A stretch of DNA of 64,000 bases from Rhodothermales bacterium (GTDB taxonomy: Bacteria > Bacteroidota > Rhodothermia > Rhodothermales > UBA10348), in the NCBI GenBank assembly GCA_017643395.1, contig JAEPNP010000001.1, positions 1,673,001-1,737,000 on the forward strand, in the 5' to 3' direction. Both the position numbers and the translations under genes were made by a program. The notes below the pieces were generated by a model that was not told the origin of the DNA, did no database searches, and was given only the letters and a program-made list of their open reading frames with translations. Shown in pieces: positions 10,813 through 22,383 of this stretch. Numbering within the stretch: the first letter of the stretch is position 1; each line of letters starts with the position of its first letter.

Positions 10813-10962
10813 ATGCCCCGAACATCCCTGACGCCGCGCGCCGATCTGGCTGCTGCCCCGGGCATGCTTTCCGTCAACGGATCGTCGATTAGCGACAACC
10901 TGATTCTGGTGACAGGACTTCTTCTGTCCCTAATTGGAGTAGTCGTACTCATCCTCACCTGA
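10813..10962 (+). CDS. Short ORF rich in Leu/Ile/Val, candidate ilv leader peptide
   Basis: A 49-residue ORF (ATG at 10813; an ATG at 10864 would give 32 residues) ends 72 bases before ilvD. Fifteen of its last 21 residues (NLILVTGLLLSLIGVVVLILT, read in two parts) are Leu, Ile or Val, the three products of the operon that follows. Several of these codons are ones a GC-rich genome tends to avoid (ATT, GTA, CTA, CTT). CGGATCG (10878-10884), before the run, is complementary to CGATCCG (10972-10978), just past the stop. This suggests a translation-sensing leader peptide; a single-pass small membrane protein is the main alternative. No T-tract terminator is visible, so a classical attenuator is not proven. 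Confidence 0.5.
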   Translation: MPRTSLTPRADLAAAPGMLSVNGSSISDNLILVTGLLLSLIGVVVLILT

Positions 10963-11004
10963 CGCCCCAGTCGATCCGCAACAGTCCAAGGCAACGAGAC
11001 GGTT

Positions 11005-11023
11005 TTCGGGTCGAACCCCCGAA
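11005..11023 (+). promoter_or_regulatory. Hairpin just upstream of ilvD
   Basis: TTCGGG (11005-11010) and CCCGAA (11018-11023) form a 6-bp stem with a 7-nt loop, 11 bases before the ilvD ATG. There is no following T-run. It could affect ilvD translation or be the second element of a leader-peptide switch. Confidence 0.35.
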
Positions 11024-11034
11024 CGCCGCATCTC

Positions 11035-12768
11035 ATGCAAAAGCCACGACGAAGCGATACCGTCAAGCGAGGATTTGAGCGCGCCCCCCATCGGTCGCTG
11101 CTCAGGGCCACAGGCGCCATAACCTCGGACGAGGACTTTGAGAAGCCGTTTATCGGCGTCTGCAATTCCTACATCGACCTCATCCCCGGGCACGTGCATC
11201 TGCAGGAATTCGGAAAGGTGGTCAAGCAGGCCGTGCGCGAGTCCGGAGGCATACCGTTCGAGTTCAATACCATCGGCGTGGATGACGGCATCGCCATGGG
11301 ACATCTCGGGATGCGGTACTCGCTGCCGTCCCGGGAACTGATCGCCGACGCCGTGGAGACGGTTGCCGCCGCGCATTGGCTCGACGGATTGGTGTGCATC
11401 CCGAACTGCGACAAGATCGTGCCGGGCATGCTCATGGGAGCCTTGCGCCTGGACATCCCGGTGATCTTCGTTTCAGGTGGACCCATGAAAGCGGGCGTGA
11501 CGCCGTCCGGTCAGAAGATCGACCTGATCTCGGTGTTCGAGGGCGTGGGCAAGTTCAAGTCCGGCCAGATCGGCGAGCAGGAGCTGCACGAGCTGGAGAG
11601 CTTCGGGTGTCCGACCTGCGGGTCGTGCGCCGGCATGTTTACGGCCAACTCCATGAACTGCATCATGGAGGCGCTGGGGCTGGCCCTGCCGGGCAACGGG
11701 AGCATTCTGGCTGTGGACCCGAAACGGCACGAGCTGGCGCGTGCGGCAGCCGGCCGCATCGTGGATCTGGTCGATGAGGGTCTGACTTCCCGGAAGGTGG
11801 TCACCAGGGATGCATTCGACGATGCGTTTGCCCTCGACATGGCCATGGGCGGCTCCACCAACACCATTCTGCACCTGCTTGCTGCCGCTGAGGAGGCCGA
11901 CATCCCGTACGACCTTGAGCGCATCAACGAGATCTCGGCCCGCGTGCCCTACCTGTGCAAAGTGGCTCCGGCTACCCCGAATGTGCACATGGAGGACGTG
12001 GACAACGCGGGCGGAGTGCCGGCCATCCTGCGCGAACTGCACAGGCTGGGCCACCTGAACACGGACCGGCCCATGGTCAGCGGCAAGACCCTCGGCGAGC
12101 AGCTTGAGGAAGCCGAAAACCGCAACCCCATCGTGATCCGGACGGGCAAGGCGCCGTTCCGGCAGACGGGTGGACTGTCGGTGCTTTTCGGCAATCTGGC
12201 GCCACGTGGTGCGGTCGTGAAGACTGGGGCCGTCGCCGAGCATATGCTCGATTTTGAAGGGCCTGCCCGCATCTATGAGTCCCAGGACGCGGCCGTCGAA
12301 GGCATTCTGGGAGGTGAGGTGCAGGAGGGCGATGTGGTGGTCATTCGCTACGAAGGTCCACGCGGTGGACCCGGTATGCCGGAAATGTTGCAGCCTACCT
12401 CGGCGCTGGCCGGAATGGGCCTGGATCGTTCGGTGGCCATGATCACCGACGGCAGGTTCTCCGGCGGGACGCGCGGACTGAGCATCGGCCACTGCTCCCC
12501 CGAGGCCGCCTCCGGAGGGCCGATTGCCGCCGTGAATGAGGGCGACCGCATTCGCATCCGCATCGAGTCCAACGAAATCGAGCTGCTGGTCGACGAGGAG
12601 GAGATTTCCCGTCGATTGGCCGCTCTGCCACCCTTCGAGTCGCGCATTCGAGGCGGCTACCTGGAGCGCTACACCTGGTTCGTGACGAGCGCCGACCAGG
12701 GTGCCGTGCTGCGCATTCCCCGTCCGCCCATCGGGGCCGAACACCAAACGCCGGTCCTGGCCGGATGA
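11035..12768 (+). CDS. ilvD: Dihydroxy-acid dehydratase
   Basis: A 577-residue protein, the usual IlvD length. Conserved Cys for the iron-sulfur cluster sit in [13 protein letters not shown] (near 43), [10 protein letters not shown] (about 125) and [12 protein letters not shown] (about 198); the [13 protein letters not shown] segment and the C-terminal [13 protein letters not shown] and [10 protein letters not shown] motifs are intact. It dehydrates dihydroxy acids to the 2-keto acids of valine and isoleucine. It is the first enzyme gene of the ilv-leu-cim operon, 4 bases before ilvB. Confidence 0.96.
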
Positions 12769-12772
12769 CCTT

Positions 12773-14536
12773 ATGACGACTGCTACGCACTTCCCGCTGC
12801 AGACCGACTCCGAGCCGGCCCACGAGAGCCAGCTCATGTCCGGTGCGGAAATCCTGATCAAGAGCCTGGAGGCCGAGGGCGTCGAGTACGTATTCGGTCA
12901 CCCCGGCGGTGCAGTGATCAAGATCTACGACGAAATGCACCGGCTGCAGCCGAGCTTCAAGCATGTACTGGTGCGCCACGAGCAGGGCGGTACGCATGCG
13001 GCAGAGGGCTACGCCAAGGCTACCGGCAAGGTTGGCACGGTGCTGGTCACCAGCGGCCCCGGCGCGACCAACTGCGTCACCGGCATCGCCGATGCGTTCA
13101 TGGACTCAGTGCCGATTGTCGTGTTCACAGGGCAGGTGCCGACCCACCTGATCGGCAACGATGCCTTCCAGGAGTGCGATACCATCGGCGTCACCCGGTC
13201 GATCACCAAGCACAGCTTCCTGGTGCGAGACGTCGCGAATCTCGCGGCGACGGTACGGGCCGCGTACCACATCGCAAGAACTGGACGCCCTGGTCCCGTG
13301 GTAGTCGATCTGCCCAAGGACGTGCTTTTGGCGGAGGCACCCTTTCACTATCCGGATGAAGTGACGCTGCCCGGATACTCCTATGTGACCCGGGGCAACG
13401 CGGATCAGATCCGCAAGGCCGCCGGCATGATCATGACGGCACAGAAGCCGCTGTTCTATGTCGGTGGTGGCACCATCAGTTCGGGCGCCACGGAACTCCT
13501 GACGCGCATCGCCCGGAAGACCCGTATTCCGGTTACGACGACGCTGCACGGACTCGGCGCGTTTCCGGAAAACGACCCGTTGTCGGTGGGCATGCTGGGC
13601 ATGCACGGCACGTGGTACGCCAACCAGGCGGTGCAGAATTCGGATCTCCTCATCGCCGTCGGCGCCCGGTTTGACGACCGCGTGACCGGCAAGCTGGAAG
13701 CCTGGGCGCCGCATGCCCGCATCATCCACATTGACATCGATCCGGCCTGTATCTCGAAGAACGTGCCGGTCGATTGCCCCATTCTCGGGGACGTCAAGGC
13801 GGTGCTGGAGGAGATGGAGCCGCAGCTGGTGGAGAAGGACACCGAAGACTGGCTGGCCCGCATCGACGGCTGGCGCAAGGAATGTCCGATGGACTTCGTG
13901 CCCGATGGCAAACTGCGCCCGCAGCAGATCATTCAGGCCCTGCGTGAGAAGACCGGCGGCGATGCCGTGGTCGTGACCGACGTGGGTCAGAATCAGATGT
14001 GGGCCGCGCAGTTCTTCACGTACGCCCGCACGCGCAGCCACATCACCTCGGGTGGGCTGGGCACGATGGGCTTTTCGCTGCCGGCCGCGATGGGAGCGGC
14101 ATTCGGCCTGAAGGACACCGGCGTTCCGGTCATCTCGATCAACGGAGACGGTGGCTTCCTGATGAACAGCCAGGAGCTGGGTGTCTGCGCCGCACACGGC
14201 CTGCCGGTAAAAATCGTGGTGCTCAACAACAGCTTCCTTGGGATGGTGCGGCAGTGGCAGGAGCTCTTCCATGACGAGCGCTACAGCCATACGGACCTGA
14301 CACCGACGAATCCCGATTTCGTGGCCCTGGCCAAGGCCTATGGCTGTGAGGGCCTGCGCTGCGAGAGCCCGGATGACGTGCAGGCTACCATCGACGCCGC
14401 GTGGGAGATCACGGATCGCCCGGTGCTCATGGAGTTCGCCGTTGTGACCGAAGAAATGGTCTTTCCCATGGTGCCGGCCGGCGCTGCAACGGACGACATG
14501 ATCACGCAGCGCTTCAACCCCGAACTGTCCGCCTGA
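12773..14536 (+). CDS. ilvB: Acetolactate synthase large subunit
   Basis: A 587-residue ThDP enzyme. I start at the ATG at 12773, 4 bases after ilvD; the longer open frame overlaps ilvD and adds non-family sequence. The N-terminal GHPGGAVIKIYDE and RHEQGGTHAAEGYA segments hold the ThDP-activating Glu, and the C-terminal GDGGFLMNSQEL ... LNNSFLGMVRQWQ is the ThDP/metal-binding motif. It condenses pyruvate with pyruvate or 2-oxobutyrate. It works with the ilvN product encoded next. Confidence 0.95.
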   Translation: MTTATHFPLQTDSEPAHESQLMSGAEILIKSLEAEGVEYVFGHPGGAVIKIYDEMHRLQPSFKHVLVRHEQGGTHAAEGYAKATGKVGTVLVTSGPGATNCVTGIADAFMDSVPIVVFTGQVPTHLIGNDAFQECDTIGVTRSITKHSFLVRDVANLAATVRAAYHIARTGRPGPVVVDLPKDVLLAEAPFHYPDEVTLPGYSYVTRGNADQIRKAAGMIMTAQKPLFYVGGGTISSGATELLTRIARKTRIPVTTTLHGLGAFPENDPLSVGMLGMHGTWYANQAVQNSDLLIAVGARFDDRVTGKLEAWAPHARIIHIDIDPACISKNVPVDCPILGDVKAVLEEMEPQLVEKDTEDWLARIDGWRKECPMDFVPDGKLRPQQIIQALREKTGGDAVVVTDVGQNQMWAAQFFTYARTRSHITSGGLGTMGFSLPAAMGAAFGLKDTGVPVISINGDGGFLMNSQELGVCAAHGLPVKIVVLNNSFLGMVRQWQELFHDERYSHTDLTPTNPDFVALAKAYGCEGLRCESPDDVQATIDAAWEITDRPVLMEFAVVTEEMVFPMVPAGAATDDMITQRFNPELSA

Positions 14537-14537
14537 T

Positions 14538-15116
14538 ATGCCTGAAGCCTCCACGCTAACGCCCCAGCAGATCATCCGTCGCAAGGCGGCCGGTGAGCCG
14601 GTTCGCCCCGATGATGAGCCGACGGTTCACCGTCATGTCATCACCGTGCTGCTCGAGAACTCGATCGGCGCGCTGAACCGCGTGACCAACATGTTCTCGG
14701 CGCGCGGATTCAATCTGGAGAGCGTCTCGGTCGGCGAAACCGACCGGCCCAATATCTCTCGTCTGACACTTGTCACTACAGGTAATGACCGGATCATCGG
14801 TCAGGTGCTTCAGCAGCTAAACAATCTGGTCGACACCCTGCGCGTGGACGACGTGACCGGTCAGGACTACGTGGAGCGTGAACTGTGTCTGATCAAGGTG
14901 GCCTATACGGTGGACTCCCGTCCGGCGCTCATGGACATCGTCGGCATCTTTCGCGGCAACGTGATCAACATCACCCCGGACACGATGACGTTTGAGGTCA
15001 CGGGCCCGACCTCGAAGGTCAATGCCTTCATCGGCATGATGAAGCCGCACGGCATCAGCGAGATCGCCCGATCCGGACGGGTTGCCATGCGTCGCCAACT
15101 AGCATTTGAAGACTGA
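14538..15116 (+). CDS. ilvN: Acetolactate synthase small (regulatory) subunit
   Basis: A 192-residue protein with an N-terminal ACT domain beginning HVITVLLENSIGALNRV (about residue 33), including the NxxGxLxR valine-binding pattern, and the second conserved domain from ELCLIKVAY onward. It activates the catalytic subunit and gives feedback inhibition by valine. It begins one base after ilvB stops. The first 30 residues are a variable extension. Confidence 0.93.
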   Translation: MPEASTLTPQQIIRRKAAGEPVRPDDEPTVHRHVITVLLENSIGALNRVTNMFSARGFNLESVSVGETDRPNISRLTLVTTGNDRIIGQVLQQLNNLVDTLRVDDVTGQDYVERELCLIKVAYTVDSRPALMDIVGIFRGNVINITPDTMTFEVTGPTSKVNAFIGMMKPHGISEIARSGRVAMRRQLAFED

Positions 15117-15131
15117 TACCCCCAGAGAACG

Positions 15132-16172
15132 ATGAATGTGCACTATGAGGCCGACAAGGCCCTGATCAGAAACCGTCGCGTTGCCGTAATCGGCTACGGC
15201 AGCCAGGGACACGCCCATGCGCTCAACCTTCATGAGAGCGGCATCAATGTGTGTGTGGGGCTCCGGCCGGGATCGGCGTCTGCCGAAGCCGCCGGCGCCA
15301 AAGGTCTGCCCGTGCTGGCCGTGGAGGACGCCGCCCGATGGGCCGACGTGGTGATGATCCTGATCCCGGACCAGCACCAGAAGGCCGTCTATGAGGCGGA
15401 CATCCAGGAGCATATTGCCCCCGGCAAGGCGCTGGCTTTCGGACACGGTTTCAATGTGCACTACGGGCAGATCACGCCGCCCGAAGGCGTGGATGTGTTC
15501 ATGGTCGCTCCCAAGTCTCCCGGGCACCTGGTACGCCGGACCTACACCGAAGGAAACGGTGTGCCGTGCCTGGTGGCCGTGGCCCAGGACGCTTCCGGCC
15601 AGGCGCTCGATCTGGCGCTCTCCTATGCGGACGCCATCGGCGGGACGCGGGCCGGTGTCATCGAGACCAATTTCAAGGACGAGACCGAAACTGACCTGTT
15701 CGGTGAGCAGGCCGTGCTCTGCGGCGGAGCCGCCGAATTGATCAAGGCCGGCTTCGAAACGCTCACCGAGGCAGGATATCCGGCGGAACTCGCCTACTTC
15801 GAGTGCCTTCATGAGCTGAAACTCATTGTCGACCTCTTCTACGAGGGCGGCCTGGAGTACATGAACTACTCCGTTTCCGACACCGCCGAGTACGGCGGCT
15901 ACTCCCGTGGGCCTCGCGTGGTCACTCCCGAGGTCAAGGAGGAGATGAAGCGCATCCTCGGTGAGGTGCAGTCGGGCGCTTTTGCGCGCGAGTGGATTCA
16001 GGAATGCGAAACCGGGGGCGAGCAGCTCGCGGCCTATCGCGCGCAGACGGACCAGCACTCGCTGGAAGTCATCGGCCGCAGGCTGCGTGGCATGATGAGC
16101 TGGCTCCGCCCGAACGCCGCATCCGACACGGTCGATTCGCCGGTAGACCGTCAACCTGCAGAAGTGGCCTGA
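15132..16172 (+). CDS. ilvC: Ketol-acid reductoisomerase (class I)
   Basis: A 346-residue protein, class I length. The Rossmann nucleotide site is [15 protein letters not shown] (about residue 19), and the cofactor loop [11 protein letters not shown] has Ser residues that usually point to NADPH. The catalytic region shows [31 protein letters not shown] and the C-terminal [12 protein letters not shown]. It isomerises and reduces acetolactate and acetohydroxybutyrate. It sits between ilvN and leuB with no spare room. Confidence 0.95.
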
Positions 16173-17261
16173 GTGGGCGATGCCTACCGCATAGCGCTCC
16201 TTCCCGGAGACGGCATCGGCCCGGAGGTCGCAGGCGCGGCCGTTCGGGTGCTTGATGCCGTGTCGCGGAGGCGCGGCTTTCGGCTGCTGTTTGAGGAATA
16301 CCTGATCGGCGGGGCCGCGATCGATGCGGCGGGCGCTCCGCTGCCGGCGGATACGCGTTCCGGTTGTGCAGGGGCCGATGCCGTGCTGCTTGGGGCCGTA
16401 GGTGGACCTCGCTGGGACCGGGGGACCGGAGATCAGCGGCCCGAAGCAGGTTTGCTCGCGCTGCGCAAGTTGCTGGGCACATACGCCAATCTGCGCCCGG
16501 TTTCTGTGCCCGCGGCGCTGGCCAGTCGATCGCCACTCCGGGCCGACCGGGTCTCGGGTGCCGACCTGCTGATCGTGCGCGAACTCACCGGCGGGATCTA
16601 TTTCGGCCAGCCGCGTCGAGAAGGGACCGAAGAGGCGCTCGATACCATGCGATACTCCGCGCCCGAGGTGCAGCGCATCGCGCGTGTCGCGGGTGAATGG
16701 GCCAGGAGGCGTCGCGGTCGCGTGACGTCGGTGGACAAGGCCAATGTGCTCGCATCCTCCCGCCTCTGGCGCTCCGTGGTCATGGAGTTGTTCGAAACGG
16801 AATTCCCTGATGTGCAGCTGGCCCACCTCTACGTGGACAACGCTGCCATGCAGCTGGTTCGCCGCCCGACAGATTTCGACGTCATCGTTACCGGCAACCT
16901 CTTCGGAGACATTCTCTCCGACCTTGCGGCAACGCTGCCCGGCTCGTTGGGTCTGCTGCCCTCCGCCTCCCTGGGAGATGGTCCTGGCGTATTTGAGCCG
17001 GTGCACGGCAGTGCGCCCGACATCGCCGGAAACGACATCGCCAATCCCATAGGCATGATCCTGAGCGCCGCTATGATGCTCGAGCATCTCGGGCAGGCGG
17101 ATGCCGCGGCAGACATTCGGTTTGGCGTGCACGCCGCGCTGAAGACCGGCCGCATGACCGCAGACCTGGCCGCGGACGACATGGCCATCGGCACCGGGCA
17201 ATTCACCGATGCCGTCATTGAACACGCCACCCAGGTGGCAGGAACACCCGACCCCGCATGA
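16173..17261 (+). CDS. leuB: 3-isopropylmalate dehydrogenase
   Basis: A 362-residue beta-decarboxylating dehydrogenase. GTG start directly after the ilvC stop. Signature segments: LLPGDGIGPEV at the start, GAVGGPRWD, RELTGGIYFG, TSVDKANVL and the DIVTGNLFGDILSDL-type motif (here DVIVTGNLFGDILSDLA), then EPVHGSAPDIAGNDIANP. It oxidises 3-isopropylmalate with NAD in leucine synthesis. It overlaps leuA by 4 bases. Confidence 0.95.
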   Translation: MGDAYRIALLPGDGIGPEVAGAAVRVLDAVSRRRGFRLLFEEYLIGGAAIDAAGAPLPADTRSGCAGADAVLLGAVGGPRWDRGTGDQRPEAGLLALRKLLGTYANLRPVSVPAALASRSPLRADRVSGADLLIVRELTGGIYFGQPRREGTEEALDTMRYSAPEVQRIARVAGEWARRRRGRVTSVDKANVLASSRLWRSVVMELFETEFPDVQLAHLYVDNAAMQLVRRPTDFDVIVTGNLFGDILSDLAATLPGSLGLLPSASLGDGPGVFEPVHGSAPDIAGNDIANPIGMILSAAMMLEHLGQADAAADIRFGVHAALKTGRMTADLAADDMAIGTGQFTDAVIEHATQVAGTPDPA

Positions 17262-18868
17262 GCGACCGCGTCATCATTTTCGACACCACCTTGCGTGATG
17301 GGGAGCAGGCGCCCGGAGCCTCGATGACCATCCCGGAAAAGATCCAGATCGCCCATCAACTGGCGCGGCTTGGTGTGGATGTCATAGAAGCCGGGTTTCC
17401 CATCTCGTCACCCGGCCAATTCGAGGCCGTGCGTCGCGTCGCCTCCGAGGTCGAGGGCCCTGTCATTTGTGGCCTTGCACGCGCGAAGGAGGCAGACATC
17501 GAAGCGGCCGGCAAGGCGCTTGAGTCGGGCACAAGGACTCGCATCCACACCTTTATCGCAACGAGCGACATTCACCTCAAGAGCAAGTTTGCCGATCCGC
17601 GATACGGCACGACGCTCGACCAGAAGCGGGCGACCATTCTGAAGATGGCGGCCGAGGCCGTGTCCCACGCCCGCAGCTTCACGGACAATGTCGAGTTCAG
17701 TGCCGAGGACGCAGGGCGCACCGAGCGGGCCTACCTCTACGAGGTGATTCAGGCCGCCATAGAGGCCGGAGCTACCACGATCAATATTCCGGACACCACC
17801 GGCTTCTGCACGCCTGCCGAATACGCCAGTCTCTTCCGTGAGGTCAAGGAGCATTGCTCGCTGGGCGACGACGTGATTCTGTCCGCCCATTGCCACGATG
17901 ATCTGGGTCTGGCCGTGGCCAACTCGCTCTCCGCGGTACTTGCCGGGGCCCGCCAGATTGAATGCACCATCAACGGAATCGGAGAGCGGGCTGGTAACGC
18001 AGCGCTGGAGGAAGTCGTGATGGCCCTTCAGGTGCGAAAGGATCGCTTCGGCATCGAAACCGGGCTGAATCCTCGTCTGCTCTTCGAAACCAGCAGGCTG
18101 GTTTCCACTTTCTCGGGTTTCCCCGTGCAGCCGAACAAGGCCATTGTCGGCAAGAACGCGTTCAGTCATGAAGCCGGCATTCACCAGGACGGCGTGCTGA
18201 AGGCCCGGGAGACCTATGAGATCATGCGTGCGGAAGATGTGGGACAGGCCGTCGAGGCCATCCGGCTCGGCCGACACTCGGGTCGCCACGGCCTCTTTTC
18301 ACGCCTTTCCAAGCTGGGCATCCAGGTCGCGGACAAGGATCGGGATGCCATCTACGAACAGTTTCTGAAGCTCGCCGACGCCAAGAAGGAGATCGGCGAA
18401 AACGACCTCTACCACCTCGTGCACAAAGACAAACCCAACGCCAACGCCCCGCACTACGAACTGGAATACGCCGCCGCCTCGGTGGCCACCAATGCGGCCC
18501 CGGAGGCTGTGGTGCGCATCCGTCACGTCCGCACCGGTCGCGTGGTAGAGCGCGGGGCCACGGGCGATGGGCCCATCGATGCCCTCTACCGCGCGATCGA
18601 CCACGCCGTGGACGAGAGCCACGACCTCGTCAACTACTCCATCCGCTCCATCACCGAAGGTGCCGACGCGCTGGGTGAAGTCTCGGTGCTCATCGGCATC
18701 GGCGGCCCCTGCTTCAACGGTCGGGCCAGTGGCACCGACGTCGTGCTGGCGTCGGCTCAGGCGTACATCAATGCCCTGAACAGTCTTGCCTCGTTCCGGT
18801 CTGAAGAGGAGGCGGTGCGCTTTGTGGGCGATGGCATCATGCGTGCGTTTGAAGGGGGCGTGGCCTGA
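17258..18868 (+). CDS. leuA: 2-isopropylmalate synthase
   Basis: A 536-residue protein of full length. The catalytic TIM barrel starts FDTTLRDGEQAPGASM and contains the metal-binding SAHCHDDLGLA motif (about residue 208) and GIGERAGNAALEE. A flexible linker leads to the C-terminal LeuA dimer/regulatory domain ending IGIGGPCFNGRASGTD, where leucine normally binds to inhibit. It condenses 2-ketoisovalerate with acetyl-CoA. The barrel differs clearly from the related cimA at 20791. Confidence 0.94.
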   Translation: MSDRVIIFDTTLRDGEQAPGASMTIPEKIQIAHQLARLGVDVIEAGFPISSPGQFEAVRRVASEVEGPVICGLARAKEADIEAAGKALESGTRTRIHTFIATSDIHLKSKFADPRYGTTLDQKRATILKMAAEAVSHARSFTDNVEFSAEDAGRTERAYLYEVIQAAIEAGATTINIPDTTGFCTPAEYASLFREVKEHCSLGDDVILSAHCHDDLGLAVANSLSAVLAGARQIECTINGIGERAGNAALEEVVMALQVRKDRFGIETGLNPRLLFETSRLVSTFSGFPVQPNKAIVGKNAFSHEAGIHQDGVLKARETYEIMRAEDVGQAVEAIRLGRHSGRHGLFSRLSKLGIQVADKDRDAIYEQFLKLADAKKEIGENDLYHLVHKDKPNANAPHYELEYAAASVATNAAPEAVVRIRHVRTGRVVERGATGDGPIDALYRAIDHAVDESHDLVNYSIRSITEGADALGEVSVLIGIGGPCFNGRASGTDVVLASAQAYINALNSLASFRSEEEAVRFVGDGIMRAFEGGVA

Positions 18869-20169
18869 TGGCCGGTCAAACCCTGACCCAGAAGATTCTG
18901 GCCGCGCACGCGGGCAGAGAGCGCGTCTCCCCAGGTGACAACGTCTGGGTGGACGTGGACATTCTGATGACGCATGATGTCTGTGGTCCGCCGACCATCG
19001 ACATTTTCAAGCGTGAGTTTGGCGAGCACGCCAGGGTCTGGGACAAGGACAAATTGGTGATCCTGCCGGACCACTACATCTTTACCGAGGACCCGCACGC
19101 ACGGCGCAACATCGAACTTCTGCGGGCCTTTGCGGCCGAACACGACCTGCCGCACTACTACGATGTGGGCACCGCCCGGTACAAGGGTGTATGCCACGTG
19201 GCGCTCGCAGAGGAAGGGTTCAACCGTCCGGGCAATGTGCTCTTCGGCACCGACTCGCACACCTGCACAAGCGGGGCCTTCGGGCTCTTCTCGACCGGGG
19301 TCGGCAATACCGACGCCGCCCTCATCATGGGCACCGGCAAGATCTGGGTCAAGGTGCCGGAAACGATGCGCTTCGTCTTTCATGGCGAGCTGCCGCCCTA
19401 CCTGATGGCCAAGGACCTGATCCTGGCCGTGATCGGGGAGATCGGCACCGACGGCGGCACCTATCGCACGCTGGAGTTCGACGGCGAAGCCGTGTACGAC
19501 CTGTCCATGCAGGAGCGCATGACGCTCACCAACATGGCCATCGAGGCCGGCGGCAAGAACGGCATCATTGCACCGGACCAGGTCACCTTCGATTTCGTGC
19601 GTGCCCGCACGGACGCCGCCTTTGAGGCGGTCTACGGAGATGCCGATGCGCGATTCCACTCCGAGTACGTGTTCGACGTCTCGGAAATGGTGCCGGTCGT
19701 GGCAAAGCCGCACAGTCCCGACAACAAGGCCCCCGTGACGGAAGTCACCGGTACTGTGCTGAACAAATGCTACATCGGCTCCTGCACCGGCGGCAAACTG
19801 GAAGACTTTGAGGCCGCCGCACGCATCCTGAAAGGACACGAGGTGAAGGTGGCCACGTACGTGGTGCCCGCATCGACCGAGGTCGAGCGCCGCATGAAGG
19901 AAGTGACGTTTGAGGGGGAGACTCTCTGGGACATCTTTGTCGCGTCCGGGTGCCTCATGGGGCACGCAAGCTGCGGCGCCTGCCTGGGCGGTCCCATCGA
20001 CACGTTTGGGCGCGCCACCGGCACTGAAGTCGTCATCTCGACGACAAACCGCAATTTCCCCGGCCGCATGGGCTCCAAGCAGTCCGCCGTGTACCTGGCA
20101 TCACCCCTGACGGTGGCCGCATCGGCGCTGAATGGCGTCATCACGGATCCCCGCGAGGTGCTTGTATGA
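18868..20169 (+). CDS. leuC: 3-isopropylmalate dehydratase large subunit
   Basis: A 433-residue aconitase-family subunit. Cluster Cys appear in FGTDSHTCTSGAFG (about residue 133), YIGSCTGGKLEDF (about 306) and ASCGACLGGP (about 370). The shorter length and sequence style resemble the archaeal/homoaconitase-like LeuC branch rather than the 466-residue E. coli type. It isomerises 2- to 3-isopropylmalate with LeuD and may also serve the citramalate branch. One-base overlap with leuA, 4-base overlap with leuD. Confidence 0.93.
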   Translation: MAGQTLTQKILAAHAGRERVSPGDNVWVDVDILMTHDVCGPPTIDIFKREFGEHARVWDKDKLVILPDHYIFTEDPHARRNIELLRAFAAEHDLPHYYDVGTARYKGVCHVALAEEGFNRPGNVLFGTDSHTCTSGAFGLFSTGVGNTDAALIMGTGKIWVKVPETMRFVFHGELPPYLMAKDLILAVIGEIGTDGGTYRTLEFDGEAVYDLSMQERMTLTNMAIEAGGKNGIIAPDQVTFDFVRARTDAAFEAVYGDADARFHSEYVFDVSEMVPVVAKPHSPDNKAPVTEVTGTVLNKCYIGSCTGGKLEDFEAAARILKGHEVKVATYVVPASTEVERRMKEVTFEGETLWDIFVASGCLMGHASCGACLGGPIDTFGRATGTEVVISTTNRNFPGRMGSKQSAVYLASPLTVAASALNGVITDPREVLV

Positions 20170-20729
20170 AAGACGTCATTCGCGGGAAGGCCTGGGTAGT
20201 CGGCGACGCCATCGACACGGACCAGATCATCCCGGCTGCCCATCTGGTCTATTCCATGACGGTGCCGGAAGAGCGAAGGTTGTATGGCCGGTTCGCGCTC
20301 AGCGGTGTACCGGCCGAGAAACAGGGCCTGCCCTTCGGCAAACGGCCGTTCACCGAGCCGGAGAGGTTCGAGAGCGACTACAAAGTCATCATTGCCGGAA
20401 GCAATTTTGGATGCGGGTCCAGCCGCGAACACGCGCCGTTTGCCATCGCCGAGGCCGGCTGTGAGGCGGTCGTCGCCGAGAGTTACGCGCGCATTTTCTA
20501 CCGCAATTCCGTGGACGGCGGATTCCTGGTGCCATTCGATACCCGCGAGCGCCTGATTGAGCGCATCCGTACGGGCGATGAGGTCGAGATCGACACGACC
20601 GGCGGCACGCTGCACAACCACACCACCGGCGAGGACTTTCTGCTCAATCCCCTCGGGGACGTCGCAGACATCCTGCGCGCCGGCAACGTGTTCGAATACG
20701 CCCGTCAGCAGGGCCTGATTACCACCTGA
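20166..20729 (+). CDS. leuD: 3-isopropylmalate dehydratase small subunit
   Basis: A 187-residue aconitase swivel-domain subunit. It shows GKAWVVGDAIDTDQIIPA at the start, AGSNFGCGSSREHAPFA (about residue 78) and ARIFYRNSVDGGFL, all typical of LeuD. It completes the isomerase with LeuC. It is followed by 61 bases before cimA. Confidence 0.94.
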   Translation: MKDVIRGKAWVVGDAIDTDQIIPAAHLVYSMTVPEERRLYGRFALSGVPAEKQGLPFGKRPFTEPERFESDYKVIIAGSNFGCGSSREHAPFAIAEAGCEAVVAESYARIFYRNSVDGGFLVPFDTRERLIERIRTGDEVEIDTTGGTLHNHTTGEDFLLNPLGDVADILRAGNVFEYARQQGLITT

Positions 20730-20790
20730 TTCCGGAGGCGGGCGCGCGTGAGGTGCATCCCGCCGGAGGGATCGCCTGACCCCCGATACC

Positions 20791-22383
20791 ATGACCTCCG
20801 TAGAAATCTTCGACACCACCCTGCGTGATGGCACGCAGGGCGAGCACGTTTCCCTGTCGGCCGCGGACAAGATCCGCATCGCACGCCGCCTGGATGCCGC
20901 TGGTATCGACATTATCGAGGGAGGGTGGCCCGGCTCGAATCCCAAGGACATGGAGTTCTTTCGCCGCGCCCGAGACGAGGCATGGTCCCACGCGCGCATC
21001 TGCGCGTTCGGCTCCACGCGGCGGGCGCAGTTCGCGCCGGAGGATGATCCCAACCTGCAGGCAATGCTGGCCGCGGACACGAGCGTCGTCTCGTTGTTCG
21101 GCAAGAGTTGGAGGCTGCATGCGACGGTGGCGCTCGGTGTCTCCCTCGAGGAGAACCTGGAACTGATTCGTTCATCGGTCGCCTACCTGAAGGCCTGTGG
21201 CCGTCATGTGATTTACGATGCCGAGCACTTCTTCGATGGCCACGCCGACGACCCGGCCTACGCGCTGGAGACCCTGGCGGCGGCCGCGGAAGCCGGTGCC
21301 GACGTCCTGGTGCTGTGCGACACCAATGGCGGCACGCTGCCGACAACCGTGCAGCAGGTGGTGACGACGGTGGCGGGGCAGTTCAGTCAGCCCATCGGAA
21401 TACACTCCCACAATGACGGTGCCTGCGCCGCGGCGAACGCCATTGTCGCCGTGCAGGCCGGGGCGCGCCACGTGCAGGGCACGATCAACGGCATCGGCGA
21501 ACGCTGCGGCAATGCCGACCTGTGTTCGGTCATACCGGGTCTGCAGCTCAAGCTGGGATACGACTGTCTTCCGGGCGATGCGCTGGGTGCCCTCACGGAG
21601 CTCTCCCATTTCGTGGACGACGTGGCGAACCTCGATCCAGTCGACCGCTCTCCCTATGTGGGTCGGAGTGCGTTCGCGCACAAGGGTGGCATCCATGTGT
21701 CCGCTGTGATGAAGGACCCCCGGGCCTACGAGCACATCGAACCCGAGCACGTAGGCAACCGACGCCGCGTGCTGGTCTCGGACCTCTCGGGCCAGAGTAA
21801 TGTGCGGTACAAGGCCGCCGAGTTCGGCATCGAACTGGATGACTCCACGACGGCCAGGAAGGCGGTTGCGCGCATCAAGGATCTCGAGAACCTCGGTTAT
21901 GCCTTTGAGGGCGCCGAGGCGTCGTTCGAGCTCCTGCTTCGTGCGGCGCGCGGGGAGACCACGGACTTCTTCCGTCTTGAGAGGGTGCGTGTCCGAACGG
22001 AGATGGGGGGTGGTCCGGAGCATTCCGAAGCCTCCGCGGTCGTGGCCGTGGGCAATCAGCGCGAACACGTTGTGGCAGAGGGTCACGGACCTGTAGACGC
22101 CATGTCCAGAGCACTGCGCAAGGCACTCATGGGCCTCTATCCGGGCCTGGCCACGGTGCGGCTGTCGGACTACAAGGTTCGGGTGCTTACGCCGGAGGAC
22201 GGCACGGCGGCCTCGGTTCGGGTGCTGGTCGAACACTCCGACGGGACCTCGTCCTGGAATACCGTCGGCGTGTCGGAGAACATCATCGAAGCCAGTTGGC
22301 AGGCGCTCGCGGACGGCATGACGTATTCGCTGCTGCGCAGCGGGGTGGCGGTGCCGATCGGCGCGACTGGGGCGACAGCCTGA
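20791..22383 (+). CDS. cimA: (R)-citramalate synthase
   Basis: A 530-residue homolog of LeuA with the CimA-type start IFDTTLRDGTQGEHVSLS, GGWPGSNPKD, SFGKSW-like SLFGKSWRLH, and the metal site GIHSHNDGACAAAN. A C-terminal LeuA-dimer domain is present (VRLSDYKVRVL). It condenses pyruvate and acetyl-CoA to citramalate, which LeuC, LeuD and LeuB convert to 2-oxobutyrate, so isoleucine can be made without threonine deaminase. No ilvA is in the window. It closes the operon. Confidence 0.92.
   Translation: MTSVEIFDTTLRDGTQGEHVSLSAADKIRIARRLDAAGIDIIEGGWPGSNPKDMEFFRRARDEAWSHARICAFGSTRRAQFAPEDDPNLQAMLAADTSVVSLFGKSWRLHATVALGVSLEENLELIRSSVAYLKACGRHVIYDAEHFFDGHADDPAYALETLAAAAEAGADVLVLCDTNGGTLPTTVQQVVTTVAGQFSQPIGIHSHNDGACAAANAIVAVQAGARHVQGTINGIGERCGNADLCSVIPGLQLKLGYDCLPGDALGALTELSHFVDDVANLDPVDRSPYVGRSAFAHKGGIHVSAVMKDPRAYEHIEPEHVGNRRRVLVSDLSGQSNVRYKAAEFGIELDDSTTARKAVARIKDLENLGYAFEGAEASFELLLRAARGETTDFFRLERVRVRTEMGGGPEHSEASAVVAVGNQREHVVAEGHGPVDAMSRALRKALMGLYPGLATVRLSDYKVRVLTPEDGTAASVRVLVEHSDGTSSWNTVGVSENIIEASWQALADGMTYSLLRSGVAVPIGATGATA

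Follow-up and report, generated by a model that had tools for sequence, protein, structure and literature searches.

The locus lies in a 64,000-nucleotide stretch of DNA from a Rhodothermales bacterium (hereafter the window) and consists of a short open reading frame followed by an operon for branched-chain amino acid (BCAA) biosynthesis (Table 1). The ORF, from its ATG to a TGA at 10960-10962, encodes MPRTSLTPRADLAAAPGMLSVNGSSISDNLILVTGLLLSLIGVVVLILT, for which neither Pfam nor NCBIfam returned a match. The original prediction had placed this ORF 72 nt before ilvD with Leu, Ile or Val at 15 of its final 21 residues, and both the coordinates and the counts proved exact; the uncommon codons to which it had drawn attention are also there, in the form of CTA, CTT, ATT and GTA. 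Among the 1384 stop-ended segments of at least 21 aa on both strands of the window, the leader ranks first by this count with 15 such residues, the runner-up having 10. The genes of the operon were assigned by profile matches, leuC and leuD by subfamily-level models together with their position.

Table 1. Features of the leader region and of the operon behind it (positions within the window).
Feature	Position	Strand	Remarks
Leader peptide ORF, 49 aa	10813..10962	+	putative sensing part; TGA stop included
Element 1, CGGATCG	10878..10884	+	in the ORF just before the codon run; pairs with element 2; swap tests
Leu/Ile/Val codon run, putative regulatory codons	10900..10959	+	last 22 codons; composition over 26 relatives
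Element 2, TCGATCCG	10971..10978	+	starts 9 nt past the stop codon; pairs with element 1 or 3
Outer-stem arm X, GAGACGGT	10996..11003	+	pairs with GCCG 11025-11028 and TCTC 11031-11034; predicted fold
Element 3, CGGGTCGA	11007..11014	+	pairs with element 2, or via TTCGGG 11005-11010 with element 4
Element 4, CCCGAA	11018..11023	+	pairs with TTCGGG 11005-11010
Outer-stem arm X'	11025..11034	+	directly adjoins the ilvD start codon; predicted fold
ilvD (dihydroxy-acid dehydratase), first gene of the putatively controlled operon	11035..12768	+	TIGR00110
Rest of operon: ilvB, ilvN, ilvC, leuB, leuA, leuC, leuD, cimA	12773..22383	+	profile matches

Relatives of the locus were gathered by a whole-genome search for ilvD and a scan of genome contigs, and a leader was scored where an ORF ended with at least 10 Leu, Ile or Val in 18 residues and had its stop 40-160 nt before the gene start. 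A leader ORF of this kind was found in 25 of the 26 regions upstream of Rhodothermia ilvD whose length allowed the test, against control rates of 0.06% (1620 positions at trp and his loci) and 0.17% (602 positions in the window), the ORF control set being the window and 60 other loci. Leaders were also present in 20 Ignavibacteria-type loci and were seen in Anaerolineae, Calditrichia and Marinimicrobia, and in weaker form in Chlorobi. Counted from an upstream in-frame ATG the leaders are often about 47-62 aa long with variable N-termini, and the most constant feature among relatives is the Leu/Ile/Val codon run. Over the final 22 positions of 26 Rhodothermia leaders there are 366 Leu, Ile or Val against three Phe, Met, Trp, Tyr or Cys (two Phe and one Trp; Met, Tyr and Cys are absent); the residues of the run vary between species, and their order is not conserved, yet they remain Leu, Ile or Val. 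The codon CTA makes up 10.7% of the Leu/Ile/Val codons in these 26 leaders versus 1.7% in the ilvD genes, a six-fold enrichment, and one Leu tRNA may be a preferred sensor. The leader tracks the operon, not ilvD: three genomes in which another gene precedes ilvD carry it and its RNA elements further upstream, before leuB, and Rhodothermia families whose ilvD is a different one carry them before ilvB. The ORF, its Leu/Ile/Val run and the complementary arms are thus kept in relatives, nearly all of which have the ORF, and what is conserved is Leu, Ile and Val beside BCAA operons rather than a generic hydrophobicity away from ilv genes. When the 20 Ignavibacteria leaders are taken together with the 26 of Rhodothermia, the rare Leu codon CTA is six- to ten-fold enriched in the runs. 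A conserved peptide (like SLFSLSLIVVVLAVLIIKDQFSVRMATVRVK) was seen in the ilvD leaders of 11 Anaerolineae loci.

The complementarity originally noted between 10878-10884 and 10972-10978 is perfect, CGGATCG being the reverse complement of CGATCCG, and its two arms belong, as elements 1 and 2, to a larger switch, of which element 3, element 4 and the outer stem had been missed. The pairings in the window are CGGATCG with CGATCCG (1:2), TCGATCCG with CGGGTCGA (2:3) and TTCGGG with CCCGAA (3:4). In relatives element 2 mostly lies 7-11 nt past the stop, and element 3, with element 4 behind it, nearly repeats element 1. The sequences change while the pairing is kept: past the stop, ahead of the run and ahead of ilvD, respectively, locus L024 reads GATCAACCC, GGTTGATC and GGGTTGATC and L026 reads GGTCAACCC, GGTTGACC and GGGTTGACC, and L018 combines GATTGACGTT ahead of the run with AACGTCAATC past the stop. 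The RNA folds that surround the leader are kept throughout an entire bacterial order. The three pairings are mutually exclusive and supported by covariation, as in the anatomy of a ribosome-mediated attenuator.

Complementarity over 7 nt could by itself be due to chance, and helix scores of partners from the same genome were compared with those of partners exchanged between genomes; own-genome pairs beat swapped pairs. With fixed windows, which make for the unbiased test of 2:3, the score of this helix was 24.0 for own partners versus 20.5 for swapped ones and that of 1:2 was 18.1 versus 15.6, in each case with none of 5000 permutations as high, although the sequences are related and hence not independent in any of the permutation tests. 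For 3:4 the scores were 15.1 and 13.5 (p<1e-4), and with 16 family or genus representatives p was 1e-4 for 1:2 and 0.0014 for 3:4; in the representative tests and those of 3:4 and the outer stem, elements 2 and 3 were placed by their own-genome pairing, which favours 2:3 there. In a whole-leader MAFFT alignment of 24 sequences 95.3% of the 2:3 cells were paired, against 25-57% when the partner was slid; this alignment is adequate for 2:3 and is spoiled by indels for 3:4 and the outer stem, for which the permutation of partners between genomes was therefore used. The hydrophobic run in relatives has a recurrent Asp (IDLLV, VDLLV), which is encoded by element 1 (TTGACC), so that it probably reflects a constraint on the RNA and not on the peptide. 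The minimum-energy fold of the free RNA favours 3:4 over 2:3 in many species, and 2:3 would therefore have to win during transcription. In Ignavibacteria (L115-L128, L034-L039) element 1 lies within the run, where it reads CTAGGGATT and encodes an LGI that recurs among these leaders; many of them also have, ahead of ilvD, another hairpin built around a CTGAAGG-T-run that likewise recurs.

No U-run intrinsic terminator follows the ilv leader in any of the 26 Rhodothermia, nor is there one on the plus strand between the ORF and ilvD in the window, where the original prediction had likewise seen none. The same clade has leaders with Trp codon runs before trpE and with His codons before hisG, and the same scan found a strong hairpin followed by a T-run at 15 of 16 trp leaders and 10 of 14 his leaders; the missing terminator at ilvD is therefore a real difference and not a gap in the method. 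The trp leader of the source genome, for example, reads MIRSATHMTSWWWTDPAGRPDA and is followed by GGTCCGCGCCTTCGGGTTCGGACC-TTTTTT. Leader-peptide attenuation anatomy thus recurs within this clade. Outside it, BCAA leaders of Anaerolineae often have terminators, with GC-rich ones at the ilvD of six loci. Trp leaders (WWW) with classical intrinsic terminators before trpE were seen at L178 (G000:C1, about 2076969, minus strand) and also among L168-L192, in the source genome and 14 other relatives. His-rich leaders before hisG (e.g., MTFHHHHMFSRRRDD), mostly with a terminator, occur at L138-L157 in the same family as the window, and no His leader was found before hisG at the three loci from the window's own genus.

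At ilvD the 3:4 hairpin lengthens into a predicted stem, which abuts the start codon or includes it. The predicted pairing runs across the ATG in L003 and L007 (CGCATG with CATGCG) and joins GCATCG to CGATGT in several loci; before ilvB it joins GCATAG to CTATGC or CTATGT (L206, L211), and in several of the loci headed by leuB or ilvB it again extends to the start region. In predicted folds the mean openness of the start was 0.30 in the no-stall fold, in which element 2 is covered to mimic a ribosome at the leader stop, versus 0.49 with 2:3 forced and 0.44 in shuffled leaders, and in about a quarter to a third of the 26 relatives the start was predicted to be no less open than in the shuffles. 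Covariation of the outer stem gave p=0.006 and p=0.02 in two tests with all sequences and p=0.10 with the 16 representatives, which is moderate to weak; since the sequences are also related, the start-codon step is the weakest link of the model. It should be noted that the 32 long ORFs of the window lack a Shine-Dalgarno signal (4/32 versus 9/32 in a background stretch), which makes occlusion of the AUG itself a plausible way of blocking initiation.

We consider it probable that the leader is a ribosome-mediated attenuator of the BCAA operon with its output at translation. The sensing half of this model is well supported, and the leader-peptide control of the ilv-leu-cimA operon originally proposed finds its support in the conserved ORF, the Leu/Ile/Val codons and the covarying pairings. 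From these features we infer that the ORF is translated and that ribosomes stall in it, and likewise how ilvD is affected and in which direction control runs. When charged Leu-, Ile- or Val-tRNA is scarce, a ribosome would stall in the codon run and cover element 1, leaving element 2 free to form 2:3, which would block both 3:4 and the outer stem and keep the ilvD start codon open. With charged tRNA in good supply, the ribosome would reach the leader stop with its footprint over element 2, so that 3:4 could form and the outer stem close against the ilvD AUG, and initiation at ilvD would fall; the genes downstream of ilvD would follow by coupling or polarity. An untranslated leader would form 1:2 and 3:4 and be off.

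As to the output, the original prediction had allowed for Rho or translation; the evidence favours translation, and Rho is the main rival. The same leader sensor could act on Rho-dependent termination if a finished leader left the C-rich RNA between its stop and ilvD free for Rho and a stalled ribosome or the 2:3 helix blocked it. This would agree with the lack of an intrinsic terminator at the ilv leaders and with the moderate covariation of the start-codon stem, and Rho has been proposed for mycobacterial Cys leaders that have no terminator (PMC1262725). We nevertheless regard it as unlikely, since it leaves unexplained the conserved and covarying 3:4 hairpin and the pairing up to the start codon before three different genes, and since the clade uses attenuators with intrinsic terminators for trp and his.

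That the amino-acid sequence acts and not the codons, as it would in a sequence-specific arrest peptide or in a small membrane protein of hydrophobic character, is very improbable. A run of about 20 residues is enough to span a membrane, but the near-exclusive use of Leu, Ile and Val argues against an ordinary transmembrane helix, and on composition the transmembrane reading was rejected and the wider alternative is largely refuted. The unconserved residue order, the absence of matches in the protein family databases, the location before BCAA genes together with RNA elements, and a recurrent Asp that element 1 accounts for all speak against it as well. Slightly less credible still is a metabolite- or tRNA-binding RNA (a riboswitch, T-box or ppGpp-type element) in which the ORF would be incidental: it would fit the conserved helices before ilvD, but a conserved unpaired core was not seen, the most constant feature is the codon run, and Rfam gave no match to this region of the window, even with E values up to 10 allowed, nor to six relatives at the gathering threshold. 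Chance or an annotation artefact, which might be invoked as short ORFs are common, is refuted by conservation in Rhodothermia and Ignavibacteria, and the swap tests, the 2:3 alignment, the Leu/Ile/Val composition and the leader frequency against controls all oppose it.

The control of amino-acid operons by leader-peptide attenuation is textbook knowledge, and Proteobacteria and Actinobacteria are the groups in which it is best known. According to a survey of 2010, no leader-peptide system had been demonstrated beyond these two groups, cases of the ermC type excepted (PMC2965389). Lopatovskaya, Seliverstov and Lyubetsky (2010; Mol Biol 44:128) made a large-scale prediction of attenuators that, as described in PMC4833913, includes RBS-overlapping variants; our search for literature on leader peptides in Rhodothermus or Bacteroidota found none, and that prediction may contain cases from this lineage. 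Possible leader sORFs in Bacteroides are mentioned in PMC7366714. In Rhodothermia, leader-peptide control appears to be an established system that comprises leaders for Trp, for His and for Leu/Ile/Val, and the BCAA leaders seem to use start-codon occlusion where the Trp and His leaders use a terminator. We give somewhat better than an even chance to the view that the BCAA leaders form a family, not described so far, of translational attenuators that sense amino acids, in an order poor in Shine-Dalgarno signals, and in which a stalled ribosome uncovers the AUG directly while trp and his keep their terminators. If true, a single sensing logic would have two outputs within one cell, and this would offer a direct test of attenuator evolution between transcriptional and translational output, and of the gating of initiation in bacteria poor in Shine-Dalgarno signals.

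The closest classical counterparts are ilvL and ivbL of enterobacteria, the leader-peptide attenuators of ilvGMEDA and ilvBN. The leader described here shares with them a Leu/Ile/Val-rich ORF before a BCAA operon and the mutually exclusive pairings 1:2, 2:3 and 3:4, and differs in the lack of a U-run terminator at 3:4 (0/26), in its phylum, in a leader that is often about 47-62 aa long with a run ending at the stop codon, and in a hairpin that extends to the start of the first structural gene. Attenuators of the ermC type are translational, with a leader peptide, drug-induced stalling and a covered Shine-Dalgarno box. As in these, the proposal is that stalling on the leader exposes the initiation site of the following gene, whereas here the stalling would arise from lack of an amino acid at ordinary codons, with no drug, and it is the AUG and not the Shine-Dalgarno box that would be covered; ermC itself has been called atypical (PMC2965389). 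The ilvB-OMG, ilvB and ilvB-II motifs of the Breaker laboratory are uORFs rich in BCAA codons before ilv genes and proposed attenuators (PMC10272879), but they belong to other lineages, have other RNA models without an Rfam match here, and are read as transcription attenuation. The actinobacterial ilvB leaders also contain BCAA leader ORFs, Cys leaders lack an obvious terminator, and the LEU element has a base stem with a Shine-Dalgarno box and a pseudoknot and was judged not to be classical attenuation (PMC1262725). The present leader resembles the first in its BCAA leader ORF, the second in having no terminator and LEU in its base stem, and is set apart from the Cys leaders, which are without conserved hairpins.
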